From the NCBI GenBank assembly GCA_016870915.1, contig VFZY01000028.1, forward strand, positions 1-42,924: a stretch of 42,924 bases of DNA, given 5' to 3'. Source of the DNA: Acidobacteriota bacterium. Lineage in GTDB: Bacteria > Acidobacteriota > Terriglobia > Bryobacterales > Bryobacteraceae. Each line of letters begins with the position of its first letter. Positions within the stretch are counted from its first letter, which is position 1. This document shows, one piece after another, positions 33,593-35,910 of the stretch. Made by a program: the position numbers and the translations under genes. The notes beneath the pieces are model-generated. The model saw only the letters and a list, made by a program, of their open reading frames with translations. It did no database searches and was not told the DNA's origin.

Positions 33593-34105
33593 TTAGTCGC
33601 GAACCACCCGGAACCCTGTGTACGCCCCTCGCGCCGCGCTGGCCGACTTCGCGTCCACCGGGCGGTCCGCCGACCCGCCCAGCGCCTTCCCCGTTCCATC
33701 CTTCGCCACCACCCACTCCGCCGCGTTTCCGCCCAGATCGTAAACCGGATCATCGCCCGATCCAGCCATCGATCCCACGGGCTTCAACAACGCACCCGCC
33801 GGCAACCCGTCGATCAACAAATACGCAATCCGCCGGCCGTCCGGTGAAAAACGCGGCGCCGTGTCGTTGTCCTTGCCGCGCGTCAGTTGCACCGTCGAGC
33901 CGTCGCCGGCCGAATACAGAAACAGGTTCGAAACCGCTTCGCCCTTGTCCTTGTCCATGCGAACCTTCGCGTACGCCGCAAGCCGAGCTCCGGGGCCCAG
34001 TTCCACGCTATCCACGCGCTCCTGCAACAGCACGTCGTCACTCGTCCAGCGCGAAGCGGCCGCCAGCGCGCACGCACACAACGGAAGAACAAATCGAATG
34101 GACAT
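33593..34105 (-). pseudogene. Short PD40/FGE-sulfatase chimera, probable deletion remnant
   Basis: A 170-aa open frame. A signal-like start (MSIRFVLPLCACALAAAS) leads into the first strands of a peptidase S9-type PD40 propeller (DDVLLQERVDSVELGPGARLAAYAK, then APRFSPDGRRIAYL at 83-96). It then switches directly to the C-terminal end of a formylglycine-generating-enzyme-like (SUMF1) domain: PVGS, VYDLGGNAAEWV (121-132), ALGGS and the last residues GFRVVRD. The propeller body, any hydrolase domain and most of the FGE domain are missing. The join lies near codons 96-104 (about 33794-33820). Its start overlaps the truncated ketosynthase frame. It could be an assembly artefact or a real in-frame deletion; a functional protein is unlikely. 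Confidence 0.6.
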
Positions 34106-34970
34106 TCCCCACCACCGCCTCCGCGCTGATCCCCGCATCCGCCATCGCATGCACCATCGCCCGCGCCGCCCCTTCGGCCAGCGGAGCCGTGATGTGATGC
34201 GCATCCGCCGTCATCCCGAACCCTGCCACTTCCGCATAAATCGTGGCCCCGCGCGCCCGTGCCGTCTCCCACGGCTCCAGCACCACCATCGCCGACCCCT
34301 CGCCCAGAATCAACCCCTGCCGGTTCAGCGAGAACGGGCGGCACGTATCCGGCGACACCACTCGCAACGCCTCCCACGCCTTCAGGACACCCGGGCTGAA
34401 CGGCGCCTCCGCCCCGCCCGCAATCGCCACCGGAGCCATCCCCGAACGCACCATCCAGAACGCCTGCCCAATCGCATGGGCCGACGACGCGCAGGCGGTC
34501 GATACCGTATAAGCCGGTCCCCTCAATCCGAACTCCATCGCGATGTGGCTCGCCGGCGCGTTCTCCATCGCCCGCGGGATGGTCATCGGATTGAACCGGG
34601 GTTTCTTGTGAAGATACAGATCCTGGTATCCCGCATCTTCCGTCAACGTGCCGCCCAGGCAGGACCCCGTGACGATCGCCGCCGCGTCGCGTAGCGCGGG
34701 CGTCCACGCAATCGCCGCATCGCTCATCGCCTGCCGCGCCGCCACCAGCCCGAACTGCGCGAACCGGTCCAACAGCAACAGCGCCTTGGGCTCGAAATGA
34801 CGTTCCGGATCGAAACCCTCCACCGCCGCCCGCTGCCGGAACCGCAGCCCGGCCAATTCATCGGATGGCCCAATCGCGGACCGCCCCGCCGTCAGTGTCT
34901 CCCGGAATGCACCTGCCTCCAACCCGCCCGGCGCCACGACGCCGATGCCGGTGATCGCAACGCGCCTCAT
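34038..34970 (-). pseudogene. 3-oxoacyl-ACP synthase (FabF/KAS II-like), C-terminal third missing
   Basis: A 310-aa open frame beginning as a normal beta-ketoacyl-ACP synthase (MRRVAITGIGVVAPGG). The nucleophile is Cys160 (TVSTACASSAHAIG), and PFSLNRQGLILGEGSAMVVLE is present. Recognisable sequence stops at about residue 286 (AGISAEAV, near 34113). In intact enzymes the His motifs HGTGT and a second His near residue 340 follow, and both are absent. The frame then runs out of register into the next gene. Without both histidines, condensation should fail. It is coupled to the ACP gene by ATGA. The break is within about 10 bases of the chimera's ATG, so one deletion or misassembly may explain both. 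Confidence 0.8.
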
Positions 34971-35224
34971 GCCGCCGGTGGACCCTCGCCCTTGGCCGCC
35001 AGCAGCCGCTCAATCCCTTCCACCACCCCGCGCACATCGCGCAACTCCCGCACACCCTCATCCGGAATCTGAACGTCGAACTCGTTCTCAAGCGCGAACA
35101 CAATGTTGATCCCATCCAGCGAATCGATGTTCAACTCCACGAACGTTGAATCCGCCGTCACCACGCCGGGCTCCAGATGCTGCGTCTTGTTGATCACCGC
35201 GATCACCCGCTCGGTTGTGTTCAT
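34967..35224 (-). CDS. Acyl carrier protein
   Basis: An 85-aa carrier protein. The phosphopantetheine attachment site is Ser35 in LNIDSLDGINIVF, flanked by the usual acidic helices. It carries growing acyl chains on a 4'-phosphopantetheine arm in the cytoplasm. It is not in a classical fab cluster: it lies between a polysaccharide deacetylase gene (ATGA overlap) and a truncated ketosynthase gene (ATGA overlap), which suggests a specialised acylation role in the envelope. A separate housekeeping AcpP is expected elsewhere in the genome. Confidence 0.92.
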   Translation of the reverse strand: MNTTERVIAVINKTQHLEPGVVTADSTFVELNIDSLDGINIVFALENEFDVQIPDEGVRELRDVRGVVEGIERLLAAKGEGPPAA

Positions 35225-35910
35225 AGAATCTCGCTCACCGTCAGGAATTCGTACCCTTCGCCGGCCAGCGCCGGCAGCAGTTGGTGAAGAGCATCAAGCG
35301 TCGGCGCGATTTCGGGATTGCGGCGTTGATCGCGCCCGTCGTGCAGGCAAAAGATGGCGCCCGGCACAGCCGACCGCAGCAGTCGCCGCGCCACCGCGGC
35401 GCCCGGAAGCACCCAGTCCCTTCCGATCGCCGTCCACATCACCCCCGTCAACCCGTACGCCCGCTGCACCGCCCCCAACCCAAACCACCGCGCCCCATAC
35501 GGAGCCCGGAACAGCACCGGCCGCCGCCCCGCCGCCTCCGCAATCGACTCCTGCGCCGCTGCGATCTCCCGCCTCATGAACCGCACGGACCTCAAGTAAA
35601 GCGCTGCATGCGTCTCCGTGTGGTTCCCCAACTCATGACCGGCGTCCGCCACCGCCCGGGCCACTCCGGGAAGCCGCCGGGCATGCATGCCGCACTGGAA
35701 GAAGGTTGCCCGTGCCCCATGGCGGGCCAGCAGTTCCAGCACCCGCGGTGTCGATTCGCTTGGCCCGTCGTCGAACGTCAACGCCACCGCACGCCGGGAC
35801 CCCCGTCCACGCCACACCGACGGCGCCAACAACGTCGACCGCGGCCCACGCACACCGTAGGCCAACACTCCTGCCGCAATCAACGCTCCCGAGGCCGCAA
35901 CGCCCAACAT
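35221..35910 (-). CDS. Membrane-anchored polysaccharide deacetylase (NodB-type)
   Basis: A 229-aa carbohydrate esterase family 4 protein. A hydrophobic N-terminus (about residues 5-20) acts as an anchor or signal. NodB motifs: VALTFDDGPSEST with Asp47 and Asp48, metal-binding NHTETH with His97 and His101, and FRAPYGARW. It removes N-acetyl groups from peptidoglycan, chitin or an envelope polysaccharide outside the membrane. ATG 35910 coincides with the expected start of an extended -10 promoter, so the mRNA may be leaderless. It heads the tightly packed minus-strand operon and overlaps the ACP gene (ATGA). Confidence 0.92.
   Translation of the reverse strand: MLGVAASGALIAAGVLAYGVRGPRSTLLAPSVWRGRGSRRAVALTFDDGPSESTPRVLELLARHGARATFFQCGMHARRLPGVARAVADAGHELGNHTETHAALYLRSVRFMRREIAAAQESIAEAAGRRPVLFRAPYGARWFGLGAVQRAYGLTGVMWTAIGRDWVLPGAAVARRLLRSAVPGAIFCLHDGRDQRRNPEIAPTLDALHQLLPALAGEGYEFLTVSEIL

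Follow-up and report, generated by a model that had tools for sequence, protein, structure and literature searches.

The ketosynthase (KS) gene in the window, i.e., the whole stretch of 42,924 nucleotides analysed here, is truncated in the sequence. We think it probable that a very recent rearrangement, leaving two junctions, cut this gene short in the organism and gutted the S9-peptidase/SUMF1 gene lying next to it. Such an event would have removed the last ~117 codons of the KS, which encode both catalytic histidines, along with anything that separated the KS from the S9-peptidase/SUMF1 gene, and would also have taken ~700 codons from the middle of the latter. The features of the locus are collected in Table 1.

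Table 1. Features of the truncated ketosynthase locus (positions in the window).
Feature	Position	Strand	Basis
Polysaccharide deacetylase (NodB-like), operon gene 1, complete	35221..35910	(-)	PF01522, E 8.2e-31
Acyl carrier protein (ACP), complete, DSL serine motif	34967..35224	(-)	PF00550, E 1.4e-7; TIGR00517, 59.1 bits
KS frame, 310 codons including unrelated tail	34038-34970	(-)	ORF as given in the sequence-only reading
Ketosynthase residues 1-286 including Cys160; last ~117 residues and both catalytic His missing	34113..34970	(-)	homology
Tail of the KS frame unrelated to ketosynthases, 24 codons and a stop; overlaps the S9 start, which is read in a different frame	34038..34112	(-)	
Junction 1: from where KS homology ends to the base preceding the S9-peptidase remnant's start codon	34106..34113	(-)	
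N-terminal ~96 codons of the S9-peptidase/SUMF1 gene, signal-peptide-like start	33818..34105	(-)	match to relatives
Junction 2: ~700 codons (~2.1 kb) deleted in frame from inside the gene, compared with intact relatives	33817..33818	(-)	alignment
Last 74 codons of that S9-peptidase/SUMF1 gene, its SUMF1 part	33593..33817	(-)	C-termini of relatives

The KS resembles KAS II enzymes much more closely than chance would allow (E about 1e-57 to PDB chains and about 1e-113 to relatives), and the resemblance stops sharply. Pfam PF00109 (ketoacyl-synt) matches residues 1-236 with E 1.6e-46, and PF02801 (Ketoacyl-synt_C) is matched at residues 245-286 over its first columns only (45 of 119), so that a complete C-terminal domain is lacking. 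The match to the FabF profile TIGR03150 stops at position 295 of 407, and solved KAS II chains align up to about residue 286-292, past which the tail of the frame gives no alignment to KS proteins or profiles. The active-site cysteine, C160, is in place within the motif STACASS. On the other hand, reading the frame past residue 286 reveals neither the first catalytic histidine (HGTGT; HGT or HGS in intact relatives) nor the second (KSMHGH region; SSTKSMHG or similar in relatives). These results bear out the sequence-only reading, which had described a KAS II-like match with Cys160 up to about residue 286 (base 34113), followed by loss of resemblance and of both histidine motifs. Likewise, the break had been placed within about 10 bases of the ATG at 34105, and 7 bases lie between 34113 and that codon. 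Lacking both histidines and most of the fold's C-terminal half, the fragment would be unable to catalyse condensation.

Relatives of this KS are intact wherever they can be read across the region. At E <= 1e-60 the enzyme was found in 187 of 237 genomes of the family, and a second sequence collection yielded 80 KS loci. Among the matches listed, all KS frames are open and about 395 codons or more in length, with two exceptions, the window and genome G017, in which the contig end falls inside the gene. Where the sequence continues, the KS of relatives spans about 386-413 codons and carries HGT (HGS in L084); the intact relatives, of which 89 distinct sequences were collected, measure about 403 aa. 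The nearest relatives are only ~60% identical. The alternative that the short form represents a conserved, complete family thus finds no example among the matches listed. A literature search returned nothing relevant. The G017 copy (L006 / L026, G017:C165:1) is among the closest relatives (64-65% identity), and its contig ends at residue ~278, near the break in the window; the coincidence is probably fortuitous, although it might point to a region that is difficult to assemble.

What follows the break, noted earlier simply as the next frame (33593-34105, minus strand), is not an intact downstream gene of the operon; alignment with relatives identifies it as an internally deleted S9-peptidase/SUMF1 gene. 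Its sole Pfam match is PD40. Residues ~1-96 correspond to the start, and residues ~97-170 to the end, of open frames of ~840-1050 aa that 30 other family genomes contain, and the C-terminal piece shares 56-74% identity with the C-terminal ends of open frames from other family members. Three complete relatives aligned with it each join a SUMF1 part, at the C-terminus, to a protein of the S9 prolyl-oligopeptidase type (domain names assigned by reading the sequences), and ~700 residues are gone in frame from the window copy. From an intact protein of ~880 aa the window keeps the first ~96 and the last ~74 residues; the peptidase domain, which lies in the missing portion, is absent. Since this second frame is itself internally deleted, the locus contains two junctions and not one, within ~300 bp of each other.

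The condition of the surviving pieces speaks to the age of the loss. Compared with the 89 distinct full-length relatives, the KS part violates none of the 83 columns conserved at 95% or more (other rows: median 1, maximum 7), and its frame shows no stop or frameshift before the junction. Accordingly, either full constraint on the gene ended only very recently, or it persists and the contig is wrong. The proposal of a deletion of the 3′ third, as opposed to gradual decay, therefore stands as regards the abruptness of the loss, which the absence of violations and the intact relatives support; to it must be added the second deletion, in the S9-peptidase/SUMF1 gene. Gradual old decay of the KS is rejected on the same 83 columns. 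That the locus as a whole is an old, slowly decaying pseudogene is very improbable: the KS is missing from many relatives, and the N-terminal S9 piece departs at 5 of 22 columns conserved at 90%, among the highest of 9 rows, but this last comparison involves 8 relatives only and the SUMF1 part violates none of 41 columns (conserved at 80%). It is harder still to believe that the short KS is complete and functional as it is, for example as an ACP-binding or scaffold protein. Its frame is open and its near-invariant positions are conserved; however, its end runs out of frame into the start of the next gene, which is damaged too, and no relative among the matches listed shares the short form.

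The more serious competitor is an assembly artefact, in which KS and S9-peptidase/SUMF1 genes are both intact in the organism and the contig either skips unassembled sequence or derives from chimeric reads. We regard this as a possibility to be taken seriously, if not the expected one. The evidence comes from a single draft assembly of 367 contigs (genome rated 96.9% complete), and two sharp, apparently recent junctions so close together fit a faulty contig just as well as a rearrangement. Likewise, a KS gene that is whole in the organism would show the same lack of decay in the part that survives here, and the contig end in the G017 relative could point in the same direction. Against a fault, a search of the genome itself with the C-terminus of an intact relative recovered only the C-terminal halves of three other ketosynthases, while the missing S9 middle found only distant S9 paralogues (<=41% identity). 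The absence of the missing parts from every other contig argues against a simple misjoin, which would predict them there, and is still compatible with a gap closed over unassembled DNA. The window also contains no N, and the domains matched by Pfam in its other genes are nearly complete, several ORFs without a match being beyond such judgement. Codon usage and G+C of all KS and S9/SUMF1 pieces are like those of their neighbours, so that composition does not separate the hypotheses. In favour of a rearrangement we count the sharp end of homology at residue 286, the intact relatives, the failure to find the missing parts elsewhere, the unviolated KS columns and the frequent absence of the KS in the family; in addition, the KS and S9/SUMF1 pieces share one strand and follow in gene order. 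Overall, we lean somewhat towards a real and recent rearrangement over an assembly fault, and the two joins would then exist in the living organism.

Upstream of the break, deacetylase and ACP are complete. The ATGA overlaps noted previously are genuine, joining deacetylase to ACP at 35221-35224 and ACP to KS at 34967-34970, and the operon would originally have read deacetylase-ACP-KS, with a full-length KAS II-type ketosynthase as its third gene. The suggestion that the ACP has lost its condensing partner holds within the operon, where none is left; the genome, however, encodes three other full-length ketosynthases. These apparently fall outside the clade of the window KS: in a tree of 33 rows, with weak support near the window row and long branches for the three, the window KS lies among Acidobacteriota ACP-partnered enzymes and the three stand apart. 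The ACP would thus be orphaned, unless it works with another ketosynthase.

Many members of the family keep the order deacetylase-ACP-KS, which in G168 continues with an MFS gene. Among 148 good family genomes (at least 90% complete, at most 5% contaminated), the KS is missing at the threshold used from 26, and the deacetylase from only 6. In 17 KS-less genomes no ACP was found in the neighbourhood of the deacetylase, which stands alone or precedes an MFS gene; hence ACP and KS appear to come and go together. In L201, L202, L203, L206 and L208 an MFS gene comes immediately after the deacetylase; its product is 56-64% identical to the one encoded behind the G168 KS, and this adjacency makes the ACP-KS pair look like a removable cassette between the two. 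The window would then be an intermediate in loss, differing from the KS-less relatives by keeping its ACP. Whether it has indeed caught a NodBFE-like Acidobacteriota module in the course of losing its ACP-KS half, the intact, orphaned ACP still in the operon, we consider an even question. If so, it records a fresh step in a recurrent loss, with the KS dead while the ACP is intact; if the deletion is not real, the locus cautions against a biological interpretation of this draft gene. Of greater use is a by-product, the module itself: judging by sequence, deacetylase-ACP-KS (34113-35910 on the minus strand of the window, and L154:7977-10183) is a conserved, widespread Acidobacteriota module with parts resembling NodB, NodF and NodE.

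With respect to known systems, residues 1-286 of the window KS align across the N-terminal half of FabF / KAS II enzymes (TIGR03150, NF005589) of the Acidobacteriota ACP-partnered clade, Cys160 included, and intact members adjoin an ACP and often a deacetylase too; the window copy differs from them in what its C-terminus has lost. Similarly, both ends of the S9 peptidase with a C-terminal SUMF1 part are recognisable, and it is the stretch between them, peptidase domain included, that sets the window frame apart from its relatives. Two neighbouring genes sharply truncated with loss of DNA differ in nothing of principle from ordinary deletion pseudogenes, and this is ordinary gene loss, not a new kind of system. 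As for rhizobial NodB-NodF-NodE, the same three kinds of protein recur, namely a NodB-like deacetylase, an ACP and a KAS II-like ketosynthase. On R. tropici and N. galegae plasmids a KS adjoins an ACP and nodA (or nodABC), and the G168 KS, from an intact relative, shares ~50% identity with it; the name nodE for these plasmid genes would follow from position, the records not naming them so. The KS tree, in which branches are long, places the two rhizobial nod-plasmid sequences together on a separate branch, outside the Acidobacteriota set. The KS of four Rhizobium chromosomal contigs (L116, L130, L131 and L133) is 52-55% identical to that of the window, has no window-type ACP adjoining, and groups with the Acidobacteriota set and not with the nod-plasmid KS. 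In contrast to the nodulation genes, no NodA or NodC was seen beside the Acidobacteriota module, and the window deacetylase, although its top NCBIfam match is NodB, scores 128.8 bits, below the curated cutoff of 240.
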